A DNA stretch of 64,000 bases, taken from positions 124,001 to 188,000 of the forward strand of contig JAGVTU010000010.1 in the NCBI GenBank assembly GCA_019136655.1, written 5' to 3'. This DNA is from Bacteroidota bacterium. GTDB lineage: Bacteria > Bacteroidota > Bacteroidia > AKYH767-A > OLB10. The position numbers and the translations under genes were made by a program. The first letter of the stretch is position 1. The number at the start of each line of letters is the position of its first letter. Of the stretch, positions 6,475 to 32,297 are shown in pieces. Below the pieces are notes generated by a model. It saw only the letters and a list, made by a program, of their open reading frames with translations. It did not search any database and was not told the origin of the DNA.

Positions 6475-8973
6475 TCAGAATTGCTGGCCTATGACAAACG
6501 AGAAACGTCCAATACCTGTGCGAGAGTCATCAGGCTGCGGATCAAGGCGCCAGCCATAATCAAGTCCCAGCAGACCAAACATAGGCAGGAACACACGCAA
6601 GCCTACGCCTGTAGAACGTTTTATGCTGAAAGGAGCAAACTCACGAAAAGTGCTCCATGTATTTCCACCTTCAAAAAATCCGAGAACATAGATTGTTGCA
6701 CTTGGATTTAAAGAAACCGGATAACGTAGTTCCGTAACAAACTTGTCGAATATGGTTCCACCAACTGTATTGCCTAAGTTGTCTGTTGGTGTAAGAGCAT
6801 AGTTTTCATAACCACGCAATGCAATAATCTCACGACCATCAAGAGCGTAACCTGACAAACCATCACCTCCCAGATAAAATCTTTCAAATGGCGACTGGCC
6901 AATGGTACGGTTGTAGAAACCAAGAAATCCAAACTGAAGTTTGTTGTACATTACAAGATTACCCATCAGTTTGGTGTACCAGCCCACACTGTACTTCCAT
7001 TTATGATACTCAATCCACTTGTATTTTTCTTTTGAATCGAGATTGGTGTAATCTTTATTATTAAATGCTGAATATGGTGGAGTTAATTGCAGAGAGAAAC
7101 TTATTTCAGATCCTTTTCGCGGATAAATTGGCTGATCTACACTGCTACGAGTGAGGTTGAGTTCAAAGGATATATTGTTGGATGTACCGTCTGTAAAAAG
7201 AAATGTTGACTGATAATTCTTCAATGTATAAAGCTGATAATTCACACCGGTATAAAGCATAAAGTAATCATCAGGCCATTTGAGTCTGCGCTGCAAACCA
7301 ACAGTAGCTCCGGATATGGTAATAGCCTGCCTGTTGTTATTGCTTTTCTTCAGTCCGTTTGTTTGTAATGAATGGTAAAGCGATACGGTGAGTGCATTTG
7401 GTTTTTTACCACCAAGCCAAGGCTCAGTAAATGATGCATTGTATGATTGATAATAAATACCATTGGTAGTAGCTCTTACACTCAGTCTTTGTCCGTCACC
7501 TGCAGGAAGAGGTCTCCAGGCTTTGCTGTTAAATATATTGCGGGCAGAAAAATTGTTGAATGTAACACCGAGAGTACCTACAATCTGGTTGGCACCCCAA
7601 CCACCTGATAATTCCACCTGATCATTCGGCCGTTCTTCTACTTCATACTCTATGTCCACTGTTCCATCCACAGGGTTTGGTTTGGGATTGACTCCCATTT
7701 TTTCAGGGTTGAAATATCCTAACTGCGACAATTCGCGCTGCGTTCTGATGATATCGCTTCGGCTGAAAAGTTCTCCGGGCTTGGTACGTATTTCACGCAT
7801 AATAACGCGGTCATTGGTTTTTGTGTTTCCTTTAACGGTAACATGGTTTATACGTGCCTGCTTTCCTTCGTAAATACGCATTTCAAGATCTATAGAATCA
7901 TTTTCGGCAGAAACTTCTACAGGATCAATATTAAAAAACAGATAACCGTCATCCATATAAAGCGAAGTGATGTCGCGGCTGCTCTCACTCATATACAAAG
8001 CACTTTCGAGGCGTTTGGCATTATACACATCGCCTGATTTTATTCCCAATACTTTACTCAGTTCTGCAGAAGTATATTTAGTGTTGCCAAGCCATGTGAT
8101 ATTGCGAAAATAATAACGGTTACCTTCATCCACTTTAATATCAATATCAATTTTTCTTTTGTTATAAGTATAAACCGAATCTGACAAAATACGTGCATCG
8201 CGGTAACCTTTCTCATTGTATTTGGAAATAAGATTCGCTTTATCCTCTGCATATTTATCATCATCATATTTTTTAGAGTTGAAAAAGTAACGCCATGTAT
8301 TTTCACGGGTTCCTTTCATAGCTCGCTTCAGTTTTACTGCTGAAACTTCTTTATTGCCGATAATATGAATACGATGTATTTTTATTCTGTTACCTTTATT
8401 TACATCAATAAACAAAATTTCGCTATTAATCTCACTGGTATCGGGAACAGTACGCAGGTTTACCTGAGCATTTAAAAATCCTTTCTCTCTGTAAAAAGCC
8501 AGCACATCGGACTTGACACCCTGAAGTGCATTTTCAGAGAGCACTTTACCCTTGGTGATTTTAATTTTTTCGCGAAGTTTATCTGCATGTCCTTTGCGCA
8601 CTCCGTTAAATGCAAATTTGCTGAGTCGTGGTTTTTCCTGAAGCTGCAGATCAATAAAAATAAGATTACCCTGAATGCGGGTGGCCACAATTTTAATGTC
8701 GGTAAGCAAACCCTGTTTCCAGAGGTTTTCTATTGCTTTCGAAAATTTTTCTCCCGGCACTTTTACTTTCTCCCCTACACTCAGACCTGAAAGAATTTTA
8801 AGTGCATTTTTATCAAGGTAGGTTATTCCACTCACAGTTATTGCACCAATCTCATATTCTTTGGGGTTGCCATAATCAATATTTATGGAGTCGGCACCAA
8901 GAGAAACCTGTGCAGTTGAAGCTTTAACTAGAAATAAAAACAAAAAGAAAAAAAGTACAATTTTTTTAAGCAT
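6475..8973 (-). CDS. bamA: Outer membrane protein assembly factor BamA
   Basis: This is an 832-residue Omp85 protein. A signal peptide (about 1-21, IVLFFFLFLFLVKASTA) is followed by five POTRA domains (about 37-440; examples IGAITVSGITYLDKNALKIL, KIHRIHIIGNKEVSAVKLKR and INHVTVKGNTKTNDRVIMRE). The C-terminal 16-strand barrel (about 450-832) ends in phenylalanine (FSFVIGQQF), the usual outer-membrane signal. BamA folds and inserts beta-barrel proteins. The ATG overlaps the end of uppS by 8 bases, so the two are translationally coupled. The position before two ompH genes confirms the call. Confidence 0.96.
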   Translation of the reverse strand: MLKKIVLFFFLFLFLVKASTAQVSLGADSINIDYGNPKEYEIGAITVSGITYLDKNALKILSGLSVGEKVKVPGEKFSKAIENLWKQGLLTDIKIVATRIQGNLIFIDLQLQEKPRLSKFAFNGVRKGHADKLREKIKITKGKVLSENALQGVKSDVLAFYREKGFLNAQVNLRTVPDTSEINSEILFIDVNKGNRIKIHRIHIIGNKEVSAVKLKRAMKGTRENTWRYFFNSKKYDDDKYAEDKANLISKYNEKGYRDARILSDSVYTYNKRKIDIDIKVDEGNRYYFRNITWLGNTKYTSAELSKVLGIKSGDVYNAKRLESALYMSESSRDITSLYMDDGYLFFNIDPVEVSAENDSIDLEMRIYEGKQARINHVTVKGNTKTNDRVIMREIRTKPGELFSRSDIIRTQRELSQLGYFNPEKMGVNPKPNPVDGTVDIEYEVEERPNDQVELSGGWGANQIVGTLGVTFNNFSARNIFNSKAWRPLPAGDGQRLSVRATTNGIYYQSYNASFTEPWLGGKKPNALTVSLYHSLQTNGLKKSNNNRQAITISGATVGLQRRLKWPDDYFMLYTGVNYQLYTLKNYQSTFLFTDGTSNNISFELNLTRSSVDQPIYPRKGSEISFSLQLTPPYSAFNNKDYTNLDSKEKYKWIEYHKWKYSVGWYTKLMGNLVMYNKLQFGFLGFYNRTIGQSPFERFYLGGDGLSGYALDGREIIALRGYENYALTPTDNLGNTVGGTIFDKFVTELRYPVSLNPSATIYVLGFFEGGNTWSTFREFAPFSIKRSTGVGLRVFLPMFGLLGLDYGWRLDPQPDDSRTGIGRFSFVIGQQF

Positions 8974-9718
8974 GTCCGGTAGCTGTTGACTCGTTTACAC
9001 CGCCAAATCTGCGATCGCGGTTTTGATAATTTACAATGGCTTCATAAAGATCCTCACGTCTGAAATCAGGCCACAATTTTGAGGTAAAATAAAATTCGCT
9101 GTAGGCAATTTGCCAGAGGAGGAAATTACTGATGCGGTATTCGCCACTCGTACGAATGAGCAATTCAGGGTCAGGAATACCTGCTGTTGAAAGGTATTTT
9201 TCTAAAAGGCTGTCGTTAATGTGATCTGGTGATATTTTTCCTGCTTTCACATCAGCAGCAATATTTTTGATGGCATGAGTTATTTCCCAACGTGCGCTGT
9301 AGCTTAAAGCAAGTGTCAGTGTCATTCTGTTGTTGGCATCTGTTTTCTTTATTGCTTCAAGGAGGTTTTTATGGCAGCGCCCGGGGAGACTTTCGAGATC
9401 GCCAATGGCATTGAGCCGAATATTGTTGTCCATAAGTGTTTTGGTTTCCTTATGGATGGTATTGATGAGTAATTCCATCAAGGCATTGACTTCTAATTTT
9501 GGGCGATTCCAGTTCTCTGTACTGAAGGCATAAAGTGTCATAAACTTTACTCCCAGCTCAGCCCCTGCCTCTACTGTATCGCGAACAGCAGCCACTCCAT
9601 TCTGATGTCCGAAGACTCTCAGTTTGCCCTGCTTCTTTGCCCAACGACCATTACCATCCATAATTATTGCTATATGACTTGGCAACCTGTTGAGGTCTAT
9701 CTGTTCTTTAAATCCCAT
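8966..9718 (-). CDS. uppS: Isoprenyl transferase (undecaprenyl diphosphate synthase)
   Basis: This 250-residue cis-prenyltransferase makes the C55 lipid carrier for peptidoglycan and surface glycans from farnesyl-PP and isopentenyl-PP. Visible motifs are HIAIIMDGNGRWAKK with the catalytic Asp at residue 21, TLYAFSTENWNRP, and the C-terminal pair LLIRTSGEYRISNFLLWQ and AYSEFYF, ending WPDF. The usual GGRxEI motif reads SARWEI here, a conservative variant. The length is normal. It is the first gene of the uppS-bamA-ompH-ompH operon and is preceded by a TAnnTTTG box. Confidence 0.96.
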   Translation of the reverse strand: MGFKEQIDLNRLPSHIAIIMDGNGRWAKKQGKLRVFGHQNGVAAVRDTVEAGAELGVKFMTLYAFSTENWNRPKLEVNALMELLINTIHKETKTLMDNNIRLNAIGDLESLPGRCHKNLLEAIKKTDANNRMTLTLALSYSARWEITHAIKNIAADVKAGKISPDHINDSLLEKYLSTAGIPDPELLIRTSGEYRISNFLLWQIAYSEFYFTSKLWPDFRREDLYEAIVNYQNRDRRFGGVNESTATGHA

Positions 9719-10054: not shown

Positions 10055-12703
10055 TTACCTCTGATTTGGTATATCCTCAGGAGTCATTTCAAATTTATCT
10101 TCTTTCTCTTTGTATTTCATAATCTGATCTAGTGCATCAGGAATAACATCACTGCAGATGACAATGAACGAACCTTTCTTACCGTTTTGAATAGCATGGT
10201 CAATTGCTTCGCGCTCCAAAGGAATTACCGTTACTTTCATCTCAGGATTTACATTTTTTATTCCTTCCAGCATGAGATCAATTATTTCCTGTTCTGTTCT
10301 TCCACGTAAGTTTCTGTCCTGGCGGATGATAATTTCGTCAAACATTTTAGCTGCAAGTGAGCCGAGTGCTACAATGTCTTCATCACGTCTGTCGCCCACA
10401 CCTGCAATAACACCTACCTTGGGTTTTGCCTCCACTTTTTCGAGGAAACGCGAAATTGCCTGGAATCCTGCCGGGTTATGTGCATAGTCAACCATTACCG
10501 TAAACTTGCGGAACTGGAAGATGTTCATACGTCCGGGAGTCTGAACCGGTGAAGGAATAAAGGTTTCGAGAGCCAGTCGGATATCTTCCATTTTGAAGTT
10601 GCGGATAAATGCTGCAAGTATTGTTGGAAGTATATTCTGAATCATAAATACTGCCTTACCTGAAAAAGTAAGCGGAATATTAATCACCTTATGCACGCGT
10701 AACTTCCATGTTCCTTTACAAATGGTAACATAACCGTTTTCAAGAATGGCGGCAAGGCCACCGCTTTCACAATGTTTTTTAATAAGAGCATTATTCTCGT
10801 CCAGGCTGAAATATGCAACGTTACAATCGAGGTTACGTGCCATAGATGCAACGAGTTCATCATCTGCATTGAGAATTGCATAGCCATTTGGCAACACACT
10901 CTCAGGCACCACTGCTTTCACTTTGGCCATCTCATCAAGCGTGTTTATGCCTTTAAGTCCGAGATGGTCAGCAGCTACATTGGTAACTATGGCAATGTCG
11001 CAATTATGGAATCCAAGACCTGCACGCAAAATTCCTCCGCGTGCTGTTTCGAGTACAGCAAAGTCAACTGTAGGATCTTTCAACACAAACTCTGCACTCT
11101 GCGGTCCTGTACAGTCACCACGTTGCAACATTTCGTGCTGAATATAAATTCCATCAGTTGTAGTGAATCCTACTTTATGTCCACATGTTTTGGCAATGTG
11201 GGCCATCAGTCGTGTGGTAGTAGTTTTGCCATTGGTTCCTGTAACTGCAATGATAGGAATACGATAAGCAGTGCCCGGAGGATAAAGCATATCCACAACA
11301 GGTTCGGCAACGTTACGTGGCAATCCATCTGTAGGAGCAATGTGCATTCGGAAACCGGGTGCTGCATTTACTTCGAGAACTGCTCCGCCAATTTCGGTGA
11401 GTGGTTCGCTGATATCGGGAGTCATAATATCTATCCCACAAATGTCGAGACCAATAATGCGTGCAATACGTTCGCACATGAACACATTGTAGGGATGAAC
11501 AACATCAGTAACATCAGTTGCAGTGCCACCTGTACTGAGGTTAGCAGTACGTTTCAGAAAAAGTTCTTCTCCTTTTTTGAGAACACTTTGCAGGGTGAGA
11601 TTTTTCTCGAGCAGAATATTCTCTGTCATCTCGTCCACCTTAATGGCAGTAAGTACTTTTTCATGACCATAGCCTCTGCGTGGGTCTTCGTTTACTTTAT
11701 CAATGAGTTGCTGAATAGTGCTTTTGCCATCTCCTACAACAGCAGCCGGCTTGCGTTGAGCAGCACAGATAAATTTGTAGTTGATAACCAAAATCCGATG
11801 ATCGTAACCGGTAATATATTTTTCGACAATAACGGAGCGTGATATTTTTTTGGCGATGGCAAGTGCTTCCACAGCCTGCTCATAATTACGTATGTTGATG
11901 GTTGCACCCCGTCCATGATTGCCACTGAGCGGCTTGATTACGAGAGGGAATCCCAAATCTTCAATTGCATCTTTAAGCCCATCCTCATCGCGCACAATTT
12001 TTCCTTTAGGCACAGGGATAGACTGAGCTTCGAGGAGGTTTTTGGTATCTTCTTTATCACATGCAATTTCTACAGCAATGCTGCTGGTGGTGCTTGCAAC
12101 TGTTGCCTGAATTCTGCGCTGATTGATGCCGTATCCAAGTTGCACGAGTGAATGACGATTGAGTCTTATCCACGGAATACCTCTTGAGGCAGCCACATCA
12201 ACAATAGAACCTGTGCTTGGTCCAAGTCGCTCGTCTTCGCGAATTTCGCGCAGCTGCTGAATGTCTTCAGCCAAATCATATTCTTTATTGTCAACAAGTG
12301 CCTGTGCAATGCGCACTGCTGCACGAGCAGCATACACACCGGCTTTCTCTTCGATATAAGAAAACACTACATGATACACTCCATGTTCGCCCGTGCCGCG
12401 TGTACGGCCAAAACCGGTATCCATACCTGCCAGTGTCTGAAGTTCGAGAGCGATATGTTCTATGACATGCCCCATCCAGGTACCTTCCTCTACGCGGTGA
12501 AAAAATCCACCTTCGTAATCCTCGCTGCAACGATGTGAATACATGGAAGGAAACATAGTTTTCAGTCTCTCTAAAAAACCCGGAATCTTATCGGTAGGTT
12601 TCTCCTCCAGTTCTTCCAGATCGAGCTTCATTACAATAAGCTTATGCCGTCTGATGCTCCAAAAGTTTGGCCCACGCATGGGGCGAATCTCAAGTACTCT
12701 CAT
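10055..12703 (-). CDS. cphA: Cyanophycin synthetase
   Basis: This 882-residue protein has the full CphA1 layout. An N-terminal domain (1 to about 160; MRVLEIRPMRGPNFWSIRRH) is followed by an ATP-grasp domain (about 215-480; FPLVIKPLSGNHGRGATINI and LEVNAAPGFRMH) and a Mur-ligase-like domain (about 485-880) with P-loop GTNGKTTTTR near residue 488 and MVDYAHNPAGF. CphA makes multi-L-arginyl-poly-L-aspartate, adding Asp with the ATP-grasp site and Arg with the Mur-ligase site. The product is a cytoplasmic nitrogen reserve. No cyanophycinase gene is adjacent. The ATG sits directly after a hairpin and a run of eight T residues, and no ribosome site is visible. Length and motifs make the family certain; polymer formation in this organism is inference. 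Confidence 0.93.
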   Translation of the reverse strand: MRVLEIRPMRGPNFWSIRRHKLIVMKLDLEELEEKPTDKIPGFLERLKTMFPSMYSHRCSEDYEGGFFHRVEEGTWMGHVIEHIALELQTLAGMDTGFGRTRGTGEHGVYHVVFSYIEEKAGVYAARAAVRIAQALVDNKEYDLAEDIQQLREIREDERLGPSTGSIVDVAASRGIPWIRLNRHSLVQLGYGINQRRIQATVASTTSSIAVEIACDKEDTKNLLEAQSIPVPKGKIVRDEDGLKDAIEDLGFPLVIKPLSGNHGRGATINIRNYEQAVEALAIAKKISRSVIVEKYITGYDHRILVINYKFICAAQRKPAAVVGDGKSTIQQLIDKVNEDPRRGYGHEKVLTAIKVDEMTENILLEKNLTLQSVLKKGEELFLKRTANLSTGGTATDVTDVVHPYNVFMCERIARIIGLDICGIDIMTPDISEPLTEIGGAVLEVNAAPGFRMHIAPTDGLPRNVAEPVVDMLYPPGTAYRIPIIAVTGTNGKTTTTRLMAHIAKTCGHKVGFTTTDGIYIQHEMLQRGDCTGPQSAEFVLKDPTVDFAVLETARGGILRAGLGFHNCDIAIVTNVAADHLGLKGINTLDEMAKVKAVVPESVLPNGYAILNADDELVASMARNLDCNVAYFSLDENNALIKKHCESGGLAAILENGYVTICKGTWKLRVHKVINIPLTFSGKAVFMIQNILPTILAAFIRNFKMEDIRLALETFIPSPVQTPGRMNIFQFRKFTVMVDYAHNPAGFQAISRFLEKVEAKPKVGVIAGVGDRRDEDIVALGSLAAKMFDEIIIRQDRNLRGRTEQEIIDLMLEGIKNVNPEMKVTVIPLEREAIDHAIQNGKKGSFIVICSDVIPDALDQIMKYKEKEDKFEMTPEDIPNQR

Positions 12704-12760
12704 AAAAAAAACGTTTGGTTATGGCACTAATATAAATGATTCGCACGAAACCAAACGTTT
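12704..12760 (-). terminator. Hairpin plus T-tract abutting the cphA start codon
   Basis: A perfect 12-bp inverted repeat (AAACGTTTGGTT at 12709-12720 and its complement at 12749-12760) encloses 28 bases. On the minus strand the second arm runs into a T tract and then at once the cphA ATG. It lies 17 bases after the stop codon of the CUB protein gene. It could terminate that transcript, attenuate cphA, or be a regulator site (each arm contains the palindrome AAACGTTT). Confidence 0.6.
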
Positions 12761-12777: not shown

Positions 12778-15700
12778 TTACTGAATAATAAGTTTTTTCA
12801 TTACCGATTTATCCTGAGAAGAAATTTTTACCAGATAAAGGCCGGGAGCATAGTCGAGCTTTGTGCTCACATACTTATTGCGTGTAGTGAATTTTTGAAG
12901 TTGTTTGCCTGACACTTCCAATATTTCAACTGAAGCCTCATTGTTATTCAATGCATTTAAGTCAATCTGAATATAATGCGATGCCGGATTCGGATAAACA
13001 GAAACCTGATTCAGGAGTGCTTCTGTTTCATTTACACCTGTGTAATAACAATTGCTGTTTGAACTTATGGCTGCCACCCACCCTGTTGAGTTAAATCCAG
13101 TGTTTGTTTTTATCTCGAAGGTAAGGCTGCCATCAGCGGCTGTAGAAGAAAAACTGGTGTCGGTTGCATCGGCTTTAAGAACAGCCAACAAAGGTGCATT
13201 GGTTGAATTGCCATTGAAGATTCTTATGGAATCAGAACTGTTATAATTATAAAAGTAGTTGAAGTTAACAGTCAGGTAAGCACCGGATTGTTGTGGTGTA
13301 ACAGTTATCACGTCATTTGTATTATCGTTATAATTAATATCGGGACCACCATTATCTATTAAGAATCCGTTATCGCAAATGTAATTCCCTGTCATAGAAA
13401 AAATTTTAGGTGCTGCATTAACCGTAACATAACCCGACCACCCTGATTGATTAAAACCGTTATTGGTGATTGTTTGAATAGTGAGGCATCCGGTGGGATG
13501 TGTTGAAACAATGGTACCGTAACCGCCATCACTTCCTAACTTTGCAATAACGGGGTCGGTTACTGAAGGTCCATCATGTACTTCGATAAAATCATTGTTG
13601 TCGTAATGTTTAAATCGTGAGAAAACAATACTAACCTTATCGCCTGCATTCAATGGCCGTAAAAAAGTTACTGTGTTTTCATTATCGGTATAGTTTGCAT
13701 GAGGTCCTCCCTGATCGTAAAAAGCCTTTGGCTCATTGATGGTGTAAGTGCCGGGCATTGATATCACCTCGGGTAATGAATCGGTGTTTAATATTGCTAC
13801 CCATCCTGAGGAATTAAAACCATTATCAGAAACAAATTTTACAGTTAGACTTCCAGTAGTGTTTGAGGCTGAAGCTTTAATAGAACCGTGGCCGGTACTA
13901 TTATTTAATACTGCAATTATGGGGTCGGTTATGGATGGCCCGTCATGTATTTCCAAAAAATCATTAGCATTATAAGTACTCAGGAAAACAAACTTAAGTG
14001 AAGCTTTATCCAGTGCAGAAACGGGAGTAAACGTAAATATATGATTATACTGATCGGTATAATTACCACCATTGCCACCTGCATCCATAAACATACCCTC
14101 ATTAGCTACATACGTACCCGGTAATGAAAATACCTGAGGTATAACTGTTGATGATAAATATGCAGCCCATCCTCCACTATTAAAGCCTCCATTGGAAACA
14201 AACCGAAAGGTGAGGCAACCTGCACTGTTGGTAGCTTTAAGTGTGCCATAAGCTGCCCTGTTATAAAGTTTTGCAAGCAATGGAGCGGTAAATACATTGT
14301 CACCATCATATACTTCAAGGTAGTCATCAATACTGTAAGTATCAAAATAAGTAAATGACACACTAAGTTTTTCATTTGAATTTACAGGAAAGAAGGTAAC
14401 CACACTGGTTAATCCTGAGTTGTCAGAATAGTTGGCATTTGGCCCTCCGTTATCATAAAAAAAAGCAGAAGAAGTTGTGTAGTTTGCCGAAGTGTTTAAA
14501 GGCATGTTGTAACTCTGAATACCTGAAGTACAATTTACTGTTGCAAACCAGCCGGTATTATTTCCACTGGTATTAGAAACAAACTTAAAAGTTAAACTAC
14601 CTGTTGCATGTGTTGATTCCAATGAAAAAGAATTCAAGGTGCCTGTATAGCTTCCCAATAAAGTGCTGTTGGTATCGGGACCATCATAAACATACAGATA
14701 ATCATTTGCTGATAATACAAATGAATGAAATGTAATATTCAGTTTATCGGTAGCACTTGAAGGGAAAAGTGTTGTTACACAATTCTTAGCGTTGGCATAG
14801 TTATCAACCGTACCACCATTATCATAAAACCGTGCAAAACAGTTTACCACAAAACTTTGGTTGGCTAACATAGTTATTTCCTCAACGGTATTAAAGGTTG
14901 TAACAGATGCAATCCATCCTGCTGCATTGCCTGATGCATTGGTTACAAACCTGAAGGTAAGCGCCCCTGTTGCATTGGATGCATGAACCGTTCCGGTATT
15001 CAGTCCGGTAATTACAGCAATGGGAGTTGCTGTTACGTTATCGGCATCAAAAACTTCAAGATAATCACCAGAAGCAATATCACATTCATGAAATGTAACA
15101 GAAATTTTTTCGCCTGCATTTTTTGGTAAAATAGTGGTAACAGCAGTGTTGGCACCTGCAGGGTAATTGCTGAATGCACCTCCGCTATCCATAAACCTAC
15201 CTGTAGAAACACTATATACTCCATTGGCCAAAGTGGTAATATCTTCAGGTTGATAATTGGTAATTATAGATGCTGTCCAACCTGCGTTATTACCTGATGC
15301 ATTTGAAGTAAACACAAAAGTGAGCGAACCATCGGCTGCTGATGAAGTAACGGTTCCATAATTTACTGCTGAACCTGTAATCTGACCGATTTGGTTCACG
15401 CCTGCTGCAGAGCCATCAAAAATGGTTAAGATATCGCCTTGACTAATATTACATTCATTAAAAACCACACTTATTTTATCACCGGGATTTTTAGGAAAAA
15501 TTGTTGTCGTAACATTTGCATTGTTTTCGTAATTATTGTTTGGGCCGCCACTGTCGAAAAAACGACCACCGGAGGTGTACCATTTACCTGAAGCTATCAT
15601 GGTGATATCATCGGGCAGGGTATCCAGTGTAACTGAAGCAAACCATCCTTCAGCATTTGATGTATTATTGGAGTGGAACAATAATGTAAGACTGCCATCC

Positions 15701-16047
15701 GCAGCGGTTGATTTAATGCTTCCATATTTTACACCACCGGTCAATTCCTTAATCAAAGGTGCTGCTACGGAATTGCCATCGTAAACGCGCAGATAGTCAT
15801 TTATATTTTCTACATTAAACTTATGAAACGTAACACAAATTTTTGCATTGGGCAGATTGGCAGGAGGATATATGGTAAGTGTGTCCTGCAGGTTATTTGC
15901 ATAATTATTTGCAGGTCCTCCCTGATCGTATAAATTTGCCAAACACGTGTAAACAACACCTGAGTGCATATTAATACCATTGCCACAAAGGGCAGGTAAC
16001 GTAAACCACCAACACAAGGTTGCCAAGAGTAAGAGTTGCTTTTTCAT
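12778..16047 (-). CDS. Secreted protein with eight CUB-like repeats and T9SS type A sorting domain
   Basis: This 1089-residue protein has a signal peptide (about 1-21, LLLLATLCWWFTLPALC). Eight tandem repeats of about 118-125 residues follow. Each has the order DxGGpxxNY, tvtxxP, aSVxFxxF, DyLxVyDG, a GTxxS element, GSLTfxFvSN and GWxA, the CUB pattern. The tail, about 1010-1089, is a T9SS type A sorting domain (VSVYPNPASHYIQIDL to GLYLVKISSQDKSVMKKLIIQ). CUB domains bind protein or glycan partners, often with calcium, so a surface or extracellular binding role is likely. No catalytic domain is visible. The repeats diverge in sequence, so the expansion is old. Confidence 0.88.
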   Translation of the reverse strand: MKKQLLLLATLCWWFTLPALCGNGINMHSGVVYTCLANLYDQGGPANNYANNLQDTLTIYPPANLPNAKICVTFHKFNVENINDYLRVYDGNSVAAPLIKELTGGVKYGSIKSTAADGSLTLLFHSNNTSNAEGWFASVTLDTLPDDITMIASGKWYTSGGRFFDSGGPNNNYENNANVTTTIFPKNPGDKISVVFNECNISQGDILTIFDGSAAGVNQIGQITGSAVNYGTVTSSAADGSLTFVFTSNASGNNAGWTASIITNYQPEDITTLANGVYSVSTGRFMDSGGAFSNYPAGANTAVTTILPKNAGEKISVTFHECDIASGDYLEVFDADNVTATPIAVITGLNTGTVHASNATGALTFRFVTNASGNAAGWIASVTTFNTVEEITMLANQSFVVNCFARFYDNGGTVDNYANAKNCVTTLFPSSATDKLNITFHSFVLSANDYLYVYDGPDTNSTLLGSYTGTLNSFSLESTHATGSLTFKFVSNTSGNNTGWFATVNCTSGIQSYNMPLNTSANYTTSSAFFYDNGGPNANYSDNSGLTSVVTFFPVNSNEKLSVSFTYFDTYSIDDYLEVYDGDNVFTAPLLAKLYNRAAYGTLKATNSAGCLTFRFVSNGGFNSGGWAAYLSSTVIPQVFSLPGTYVANEGMFMDAGGNGGNYTDQYNHIFTFTPVSALDKASLKFVFLSTYNANDFLEIHDGPSITDPIIAVLNNSTGHGSIKASASNTTGSLTVKFVSDNGFNSSGWVAILNTDSLPEVISMPGTYTINEPKAFYDQGGPHANYTDNENTVTFLRPLNAGDKVSIVFSRFKHYDNNDFIEVHDGPSVTDPVIAKLGSDGGYGTIVSTHPTGCLTIQTITNNGFNQSGWSGYVTVNAAPKIFSMTGNYICDNGFLIDNGGPDINYNDNTNDVITVTPQQSGAYLTVNFNYFYNYNSSDSIRIFNGNSTNAPLLAVLKADATDTSFSSTAADGSLTFEIKTNTGFNSTGWVAAISSNSNCYYTGVNETEALLNQVSVYPNPASHYIQIDLNALNNNEASVEILEVSGKQLQKFTTRNKYVSTKLDYAPGLYLVKISSQDKSVMKKLIIQ

Positions 16048-16936: not shown

Positions 16937-19018
16937 ATGAGAAACCTAATACTAACCTTGTTAAGTATTGCAGCCTCCTTTGCTTTTGGCCAGACTAATA
17001 GGTTAGATTCCCTGTTAGTACAAGCAAAGCAATACAGAGTGGAAGATACCAGCCGGGCATCCATACTTAACGAGCTTTCCATTCAGTTAAGCAATTCAGA
17101 TTTTGATAAAGGGATGGCGTATGCCGATAGTTCCATTGCGCTCTGCACACGCATAAAATCAGATGTAAAGTTGGCAACAGCCTATTATGCCAAAGCACGT
17201 AACTTGAGCTCTGATGGTCAGGACTCTCTGGCCATAGTGAATTATCAAATTGCCTATGACCTCAACAAGAAAGTCGGAAAAGAACTTGCATGCGGAACCA
17301 TGTTATATAATATGGGAATTTCGTTCTATAACCTTTCATACTATAAAAAGGCAACAGAGATGCACACAAAAGCTCTTGCTATTTTTAAAAAACTGAAAAA
17401 TGAAAAAGGAATCTCTGCTGCGCTTAACAGCCTGGGTATTGTTGCCATGGAGCTATCCGACTATTCACACGCTATTGAATATTATCTCGAAAGTCTTGAT
17501 TTAGCCAAACGTAATAACGATTCAACAGTAATGGCTAACACATTAATGAATATCGGCATTGTATATAAAAACATAGGCGATTTAAACAAAGCTATTACGT
17601 ATATGAATAATGCGTTACGAATCTATCAGCAGCAAAGTAACAACCTGTATATCGCAAAAGCCTTTAATAATATTGCTAATGTTTATGGTGAAATGAAACA
17701 ACCTGCAAAAGCATTGGAATATTATGATAAAGCACTTGAAATAAATAAGCAATCAGACTATGAATACGGTATTGCAAGCAATTATATCAATATGGGTATT
17801 GAATTGCGCCAACTAAACAGGTTTACGCAAGCTTACCAATCGCTGCAAAAAGCTGAAGCCTTGTTTTTTAAAATAGATGACAAAAACAATTATGCTATTG
17901 CATTAAAAACAAAAGCTTCATTATTATTGGCTGCACCAGACTCCACATTACTTCAGTTAGGAATTGCATCACCACAAAAAACAGCAATAGTCAAATCGTT
18001 ACTTAATCAGGCAAAAGATATATTTATAATTACTGAAGACTATGCATCGCTTGCTGATGTAAATGATGACTTATGCCGCTTGTACGAAAACAGTGGTGAT
18101 TATAAAAACGCATTTACACATTACAAACAATATGTGGCATGCCGTGATTGTGTGCTGATTGATGAACATAAAATTGAAATTGAAAAACGTGAAATGAAAT
18201 ATGATTTTGATTTGCGTGAACAGGAGTTAAAAGTTGCCAACATTCAAAAACAAGCCGAACTGGAATACGAACAAGTGAATCGCCAATACACATTGGCCGG
18301 AGGTATAGCACTTTTGTTGATTTCGGGTGGATTTTTCATTTCATATAAAAGAAGAAAGGATGCTTTGCATAAACGAAAAGAAGCCGAGTTAAATGCAAGC
18401 AGGGTGGAATCAGAATTAAAAGCATTACGACTACAGATGAATCCACATTTTATGTTCAATTCACTCAACTCCATCACCAATTTTATTGATCAGCATAAAA
18501 CAGAAACAGCATCAAACTATTCGGTAAAATTTGCAAAACTGATGCGCATGGTTCTCGAAAATTCAGAAAGCCCGGAAGTGCCACTGGCAGACGAGCTTCA
18601 GTCCACTGAGCTTTATTTATCACTTGAAGCACTCCGGCTAAAGCCTAAACTCACTTATACCATAAACATGGAATCTTCACTGGATGCAGAAAACATTATG
18701 ATACCATCCATGCTGCTCCAACCTTTTGTCGAAAACAGTATTATACATGGCATCTCTCCATTGAGTGACGGAGGCACTGTTTCTATTTCCATCAGGCAAC
18801 AGGAACAATGGTTATTTATAAATATTGATGATAATGGTGTAGGCATATCGCCCGAAAAACCTGCTATGACAGAAAGAAAATCAATGGCAATAAGAATCAG
18901 TAACGACAGAATAGCACTGTTTAATGAGAGACATCAAACACATGCTTCAATTGAATATGAACAACTCAACCCGGGCACCAGGGTTGTAATTAAAATACCA
19001 CTTACTTTACAATTCTGA
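16937..19018 (+). CDS. TPR-containing LytS-type sensor histidine kinase
   Basis: This is a 693-residue membrane sensor. A signal peptide (about 1-18, LTLLSIAASFAFG) precedes a periplasmic TPR array (about 35-400; repeats such as KATEMHTKALAIFKKL and KALEYYDKALEINKQ). A coiled coil, one transmembrane helix (about 451-470, LAGGIALLLISGGFFISY), a second coil and the kinase domain follow. The histidine box is LQMNPHFMFNSLNSI (His near residue 503), typical of the His_kinase/LytS family, and the ATPase N- and G-boxes are FVENSIIHG and IDDNGVGI. The next gene, 14 bases on, is its LytTR response regulator. The signal sensed is unknown. Confidence 0.9.
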   Translation: MRNLILTLLSIAASFAFGQTNRLDSLLVQAKQYRVEDTSRASILNELSIQLSNSDFDKGMAYADSSIALCTRIKSDVKLATAYYAKARNLSSDGQDSLAIVNYQIAYDLNKKVGKELACGTMLYNMGISFYNLSYYKKATEMHTKALAIFKKLKNEKGISAALNSLGIVAMELSDYSHAIEYYLESLDLAKRNNDSTVMANTLMNIGIVYKNIGDLNKAITYMNNALRIYQQQSNNLYIAKAFNNIANVYGEMKQPAKALEYYDKALEINKQSDYEYGIASNYINMGIELRQLNRFTQAYQSLQKAEALFFKIDDKNNYAIALKTKASLLLAAPDSTLLQLGIASPQKTAIVKSLLNQAKDIFIITEDYASLADVNDDLCRLYENSGDYKNAFTHYKQYVACRDCVLIDEHKIEIEKREMKYDFDLREQELKVANIQKQAELEYEQVNRQYTLAGGIALLLISGGFFISYKRRKDALHKRKEAELNASRVESELKALRLQMNPHFMFNSLNSITNFIDQHKTETASNYSVKFAKLMRMVLENSESPEVPLADELQSTELYLSLEALRLKPKLTYTINMESSLDAENIMIPSMLLQPFVENSIIHGISPLSDGGTVSISIRQQEQWLFINIDDNGVGISPEKPAMTERKSMAIRISNDRIALFNERHQTHASIEYEQLNPGTRVVIKIPLTLQF

Positions 19019-29448: not shown

Positions 29449-29916
29449 ATGAATTTCAGACATTACAAAATTTTAGCGTGTTGCCTATTGTTGTTTACTT
29501 TGAAAGCATGCACATCAAATCAGAATCAAAATTCACTTAACAATCTGGATTGGCTGATAGGTACCTGGCAAGGACAGTCGCGCAGCGGGAATGTGTTTTA
29601 TGAAGAGTGGATAAAAGAAAGTCCGACAGAATTTATTAATCATAATTATCATTTCGAAAATGATTTAAAAATAAAAGGAGGTTCCTCAAAAATTATCCTG
29701 CAGGATAATCATATCTATTACATAAACGATACTGACAGCAGCAAACAATTGCGCTGGAAAGCTACAGATGTACATCCGGCATCTGTAGCTTTCGGCAACG
29801 ATTCTATAAAACCATATTCGCGCATTACTTTTTCATTATCTGCACAAAACACTTGGGATGCCACACTCACAGGCCCCAAAGACACCATCACTTATTCCCT
29901 GAAAAGAATTCGTTGA
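29449..29916 (+). CDS. DUF6265-like lipoprotein
   Basis: This is a 155-residue protein starting at ATG 29449. That start gives a clean lipoprotein signal (ILACCLLLFTLKAC, lipid Cys at residue 21); the upstream in-frame ATG at 29395 would add 18 unrelated residues. The mature part opens NNLDWLIGTWQGQS, the WLxGxW hallmark of DUF6265/lipocalin-like small barrels, with a polar central strand region and a C-terminal DATLTGPKDTITYSLKR. Function unknown. Confidence 0.7.
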   Translation: MNFRHYKILACCLLLFTLKACTSNQNQNSLNNLDWLIGTWQGQSRSGNVFYEEWIKESPTEFINHNYHFENDLKIKGGSSKIILQDNHIYYINDTDSSKQLRWKATDVHPASVAFGNDSIKPYSRITFSLSAQNTWDATLTGPKDTITYSLKRIR

Positions 29917-32259: not shown

Positions 32260-32297
32260 AAAAGAAAAGGCAACATTTTTATGTTGCCTTTTCTTTT
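32260..32297. terminator. Bidirectional terminator between convergent genes
   Basis: A 17-bp perfect stem (left arm 32260-32276, right arm 32281-32297) has a TTTT loop. The GGCAACAT core is flanked by A-rich sequence on the left and T-rich on the right, so it can stop transcription in both directions. It lies between the T9SS gene stop and the regulator gene stop. Confidence 0.92.

Follow-up and report, generated by a model that had tools for sequence, protein, structure and literature searches.

The 74-nt gap between a CUB-domain gene and the cyanophycin synthetase gene cphA is likely to hold a fused element on the minus strand, in which the terminator of the CUB gene carries the promoter of cphA nested inside it. 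One 57-base stretch probably does both the stop and the start job in a small group of uncultured Bacteroidota. Positions refer to the window, i.e. the whole 64,000 nt of DNA that were analysed, which come from a Bacteroidota genome of 2.96 Mb in 27 contigs (G000). The nearest relatives belong to the same genus (Bacteroidetes bacterium OLB10, G001; SZAS-1, G003; UBA6661, G002), and the genus comparison covers these four genomes, one per species. The features of the locus are:

12778–16047, minus strand: CUB gene; its product of 1089 aa is secreted and carries CUB domains plus a C-terminal sorting domain of the T9SS
12778–12780, minus strand: stop codon of the CUB gene
12749–12760, minus strand: hairpin arm 1, AAACGTTTGGTT, beginning 17 nt past the CUB stop codon
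12735–12748, minus strand: 5' half of the loop, TCGTGCGAATCATT, inner-stem partner of the -7 box region in OLB10 and SZAS-1, weak here
12727–12734, minus strand: predicted -7 box of cphA, TATATTAG, inside the loop (TATATTCG in the three sister species)
12721–12726, minus strand: 3' part of the loop, TGCCAT, identical across the three hairpin-bearing species
12709–12720, minus strand: hairpin arm 2, AACCAAACGTTT, which makes up most of the cphA leader (19 nt, predicted)
12704–12711, minus strand: T tract of 8 T (three of them inside arm 2), which would serve as U-tract of the terminator and closes the predicted cphA leader
12703–12701, minus strand: ATG of cphA
10055–12703, minus strand: cphA, encoding an 882-aa cyanophycin synthetase (TIGR02068)
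8966–9718, minus strand: uppS
6475–8973, minus strand: bamA

Read along the minus strand, the order is CUB/T9SS gene, 74-nt gap, cphA, 336-nt gap, uppS and bamA. The cphA product scores 1286 bits against TIGR02068 (cut-off 850), and protein comparison indicates that its start codon is correct, since the N-terminus M[KR]..[ED]I..M.GP is common to nearly all of the 30 relatives compared.

The original prediction described a perfect 12-bp inverted repeat, a T run and then ATG, and placed them at 12704–12760. This interval proved exact, and the arrangement was confirmed by a repeat search, Markov controls and RNA folding. The arms (12709–12720 and 12749–12760) are 100% complementary with 28 nt between them, and on the minus strand arm 2, the T tract and the cphA ATG are contiguous. 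A run of eight or nine T adjoins the stem in all three hairpin-bearing species, its first three T lying within the stem. In the window, three inverted repeats are perfect over 12 bp or more and have arms no farther than 40 nt apart; twelve first-order Markov sequences as long as the window yielded 0, 0, 0, 0, 0, 0, 0, 0, 1, 0, 0 and 1, and none of these had a T tail. The 81-nt RNA folds with a minimum free energy of -16 kcal/mol, compared with an average of -9.05 for shuffled versions (z -2.71), of which 1 in 200 does as well. The inverted repeat with its T tract is thus beyond chance expectation; it is absent from the output of a simple terminator scan because that scan has a loop limit of 8. 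Two features go beyond what was originally described: the loop itself folds in OLB10 and SZAS-1, and a promoter box sits in the loop. Elsewhere in the window, an inverted repeat that is perfect over 17 bp and has the loop TTTT (32260–32297) lies between two convergent genes and is probably a bidirectional terminator, and another, perfect over 14 bp and with 9 nt in its loop (29757–29793), lies inside a plus-strand ORF of 173 aa.

The upstream regions of cphA were compared at 30 loci, the window's own included. Both arms were found only in the window genome, OLB10 and SZAS-1, and within the same 30 regions only these three species have a perfect repeat of at least 10 bp adjoining the ATG; one further locus (L010) has an unrelated perfect repeat farther upstream of cphA. 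Lack of conservation of the arms had been named beforehand as an outcome that would count against the original prediction, and the comparison showed the opposite in these three species. Arm 1 differs from that of the window genome at 0 of 12 positions in OLB10 and at 1 of 12 in SZAS-1, compared with 138/399 and 215/387 fourfold-degenerate sites of cphA (35–56%), which gives Fisher p values, uncorrected and based on short stretches in three related species, of 0.007 and 0.001, respectively. Against its own flanks the uncorrected values for arm 1 are 0.001 (window genome and SZAS-1) and 0.08 (the closer OLB10), and the contrast is weaker against the loop half alone (0.03 for the window genome and SZAS-1, 0.06 for OLB10 and SZAS-1, 0.54 for the window genome and OLB10). 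Between the window genome and SZAS-1 the differences number 12/16 in the stretch from the CUB stop codon to arm 1, 7/14 in the 5' half of the loop, 1/8 in the box, 0/6 in the 3' part of the loop and 0/12 in arm 2. By this comparison, arm 1 is an island of conservation.

The 28-nt spacing of the arms is unchanged in the three hairpin-bearing species. The single SZAS-1 change in arm 1, A to G, converts an A-U pair to G-U and so keeps the pairing; this one change is the whole of the support for pairing among the three species, in which double compensatory changes number zero. In UBA6661 arm 1 is missing and the sequence from the box to the ATG is kept (TATATTCGTGCCACAACCAAATGGTTTTTTTATG), and the string TATATT(A/C)GTGCCA(T/C)AACCAAA is present in all four species, even without arm 1. 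In another genus (L006 of G015), some 25–65 nt upstream of cphA, CGAATCATTT precedes a likely -7 box, TTTCTTTG, in the absence of arms; this spacer may thus predate the hairpin. A different element, ACGAAACTATT..TATTTTCA or near it, is shared 40–110 nt upstream of cphA in other genera (L011, L012 and L013, less exactly L009 and L016). Its GAAA and TTTC ends stand in inverted order, and it is possibly a promoter or operator of those cphA genes.

The terminators of the same genome were sampled in the window and 395 kb of other stretches, with 156 gene ends. A hairpin followed by T occurs at 29 of these (5.8 in shuffles), with a score of at least 16 at 25 (1.2 in shuffles), and the usual terminator stands 13–35 nt past the stop codon with a stem of 9–16 bp and a loop of mostly 3–9 nt. 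As in an intrinsic (Rho-independent) terminator, the stem of the CUB/cphA hairpin is followed at once by the U tract, and its position (17 nt past the stop codon) and stem length (12 bp) are those usual for this genome. It differs in that its T tract runs up to the start codon of the following gene, its stem is AU-rich (only 4 G-C pairs in the window genome) and its 28-nt loop holds a promoter box. The loop is an outlier, as loops of at least 20 nt occur in only two of the 25 good terminators, the other having 21 nt. Hairpin energies are -15.5 kcal/mol in the window genome, -23.2 in OLB10 and -23.1 in SZAS-1. Other hairpins of the sample range from -7.8 to -26.5 kcal/mol, counting 24 of the other 28 (four with loops of at least 20 nt were left out); six of the 24 are weaker than that of the window genome, and the OLB10 and SZAS-1 values lie in the upper part of the range.

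In these two species the 5' half of the loop pairs with the box region in an inner stem, of 8 bp in OLB10 and 9 bp in SZAS-1, which shortens the loop to 7 and 3 nt, respectively. The inner stems form despite 6 differences between the two 5' halves over their 14 positions. An equally stable pairing arises in 0.8% and 1.3% of shuffled 5' halves (OLB10 and SZAS-1) and in 4.0% and 5.7% of random 14-mers of genomic composition. The loop of the window genome has no structure beyond chance (67% of shuffles are as good), the inner stem having been lost there through a change of C to A in the box.

The distribution of the upstream gene follows that of arm 1. A search of 41 genomes found full-length CUB orthologs in the window genome, OLB10 and SZAS-1 (100, 92 and 81% identity), and none in the other 38, UBA6661 included, where there were partial domain matches only. 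The CUB ortholog and arm 1 thus co-occur in three of three species, and both are missing in the fourth, UBA6661. There a different gene, of 273 aa, precedes cphA and is followed, upstream of the cphA promoter, by a 12-bp hairpin of its own with a short loop and a T-rich tail. Across the four species arm 1 goes with the upstream gene and the box stays with cphA, so that the arm behaves like part of a terminator and the box like part of a promoter. The suggestion that the hairpin terminates the CUB transcript gains support from its position after the stop codon, the T tract, the conserved pairing and the co-occurrence with the CUB gene.

It had also been proposed that cphA would be left without a leader unless a promoter lies inside the hairpin, and with a predicted -7 box in the loop a promoter is very probably there. 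A scan for E. coli sigma-70 promoters gave 52 sites against 47.0 in shuffles (sd 6.9), i.e. no excess, and the Bacteroidota box was used instead. For the primary sigma factor of Bacteroidota (sigma-ABfr or sigma-A) this box is given as TAnnTTTG at -12 to -5, with a -33 motif described as weak or absent in Flavobacterium, short leaders (median 24 nt in F. psychrophilum) and, as the norm, no Shine-Dalgarno sequence (PMC6847099, PMC9723704, PMC7366714). The predicted cphA promoter is alike in the usual spacing between the ATG and its candidate box, TATATT(A/C)G, in its short predicted leader and in its lack of a Shine-Dalgarno sequence; it is unlike the consensus in having one box mismatch and in the placement of the box between hairpin arms. 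The remark that no ribosome site is visible was correct, and describes the normal state in Bacteroidota (PMC6847099).

The candidate cphA box lies 31 nt before the ATG and matches five of the six consensus bases of TAnnTTTG, with the one mismatch in all four species. The consensus itself was examined at 120 gene starts of the same genome whose gap is 60 nt or longer, where it peaks at -26 to -35 before the ATG (20 matches, compared with 3 on the reverse strand). At promoter distance TAnnTTAG occurs four times, cphA included, against 0.46 expected, and C at the seventh base twice against 0.55; of the well-counted single deviations, the change to A at this base shows the strongest enrichment. 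Under the T-12 to G-5 box rule taken from PMC6847099, transcription of cphA is predicted to start at 12722, 19 nt before the ATG, with a leader composed of AT, arm 2 and T5. Adenines at -12, -13, -3 and -6 are listed as positive for initiation in F. johnsoniae; those at -12 and -13 are present at cphA and those at -3 and -6 are missing.

The nested terminator-promoter is the best explanation of these observations. From the sequence, its conservation, the positional fit and the co-occurrence with the CUB gene we infer termination, a start site and insulation as follows. RNA made by polymerase leaving the CUB gene would form the 12-bp hairpin with U8, with the inner stem in addition in OLB10 and SZAS-1, and the CUB transcript would end at the start codon of cphA or immediately before it. 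Between the arms, the DNA would carry a sigma-A type -7 box from which transcription of cphA begins about 19 nt before the ATG, just upstream of arm 2, and the mRNA with this short leader would be translated without a Shine-Dalgarno sequence. Since this leader contains arm 2 only, the cphA mRNA would be unable to form the hairpin, and the overlap would insulate cphA from CUB read-through inside the 74-nt gap. In computed folding, the last 18 nt before the AUG have an unpaired probability of 0.43, 0.28 and 0.19 in read-through RNA (window genome, OLB10 and SZAS-1, respectively) and of 0.62, 0.67 and 0.69 in the short cphA mRNA; around the AUG of the window genome the values are 0.56 and 0.59, almost no difference. 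As the read-through RNA is less open before the AUG, the folding suggests that it would be translated somewhat less, a small effect.

A rather unlikely alternative is that no real termination takes place: the -7 box and leader would drive cphA and the arms would be incidental, arm 2 being kept as start region and leader and arm 1 as an upstream promoter element. It would account for UBA6661, which keeps the box and arm 2 without arm 1, and for the AU-rich stem and long loop. Arm 1 also contains TTTG 17 nt upstream of the box, a distance that is the spacing of a -33 element. Such an element is not evident at 30 other boxes of the genome, which leaves it unsupported as the cause of the conservation of arm 1, and it is likewise described as not evident in F. 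johnsoniae (PMC6847099). Moreover, the conservation extends beyond TTTG to all 12 bases of arm 1, which are the exact complement of arm 2, and arm 1 accompanies the CUB gene rather than cphA.

The arms, whose centres are 40 bp apart, could instead be a pair of DNA sites (core AAACGTTT) that flank the promoter and bind a LacI-type or other regulator, which is very unlikely. The palindrome in each arm resembles the centre of LacI-family operators, and the retained 28-nt distance would suit such a pair. A regulon operator is made unlikely by the occurrence of the exact arm sequence only three times in the 2.96-Mb genome, two of them here (the reversed control occurs four times), and the other matches to AAACGTTTGG in 459 kb lie outside promoter-like places. 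SZAS-1 retains the pairing, as G-U, with a disrupted arm-1 palindrome, and UBA6661 lacks arm 1 and has an altered arm-2 palindrome. The proposed regulator site thus found no support as a regulon site; an operator private to this locus, though unlikely, would be compatible with these counts. Last, a riboswitch-like leader or attenuator, in which conditional termination within the cphA leader would control the gene, was suggested by the hairpin and T tract directly before a biosynthetic gene, but is most improbable: the predicted cphA start falls between the arms, so that its mRNA would hold the second arm only, the 17 nt from the CUB stop codon to arm 1 leave too little room for a promoter and sensor of their own, a search of Rfam found no family (one chance match on the other strand, E 0.63) and the hairpin is missing from cphA of other genera among the 30 upstream regions.

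Each part of the nested terminator-promoter is ordinary, and the nesting is rare in the sample. A box at -46 to -24 precedes 45 of 170 gene starts in the genome sample and lies inside a T-tailed hairpin only at cphA, and among 441 gene starts in 80 loci of relatives there are three nested cases, both counts being based on longest-ORF gene calls, in which some starts are wrong. Two of the three are the OLB10 and SZAS-1 counterparts of this locus, and the third is weak and not downstream of a co-directional gene. None of the other 15 of 16 co-directional terminators has a box inside the hairpin, and seven of the 16 have no box in the gap. At two loci (L133 and L136) the tail of a terminator overlaps a following box-like sequence. 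In L136, upstream of the ORF at 17569–18324 of that locus, the T tract after a short ACAGAGT/ACTCTGT inverted repeat runs directly into a TATTTTTG box 32 nt before the start codon, another close coupling in the same genome. A thin search of the literature, covering titles and the beginnings of abstracts, found no natural bacterial promoter and terminator embedded or overlapping in this way, and passages of PMC3890552 and PMC4245973 contain no comparable nested example.

A further reading, which we consider unlikely, is that the terminator wraps the promoter so that polymerase terminating the CUB transcript is re-used at cphA and any read-through RNA hides the cphA start. Reinitiation by recycled RNA polymerase after a terminator has been described in vitro for E. 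coli (PMC6978380). The present locus resembles that system in having a promoter within reach of a just-terminated polymerase, and differs in that the E. coli promoter lies outside the terminator, whereas here the -7 box is inside and recycling is hypothetical. If it occurred, polymerase would be set free some 20 bp past the cphA -7 box and reinitiate there, CUB transcription would feed cphA without a shared mRNA, and the complementarity of the box to the 5' loop half, seen in OLB10 and SZAS-1, would be a built-in device that makes one sequence both terminator stem and promoter.

If the nesting is correct, a gap of 74 nt would hold a complete terminator and a complete promoter. The locus would also be a natural object on which to ask whether just-terminated polymerase supplies a promoter that lies within the terminator, a question prompted by in vitro single-molecule work. 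For annotation it suggests caution, since a hairpin and T tract reaching right up to a start codon may be something other than an attenuator.
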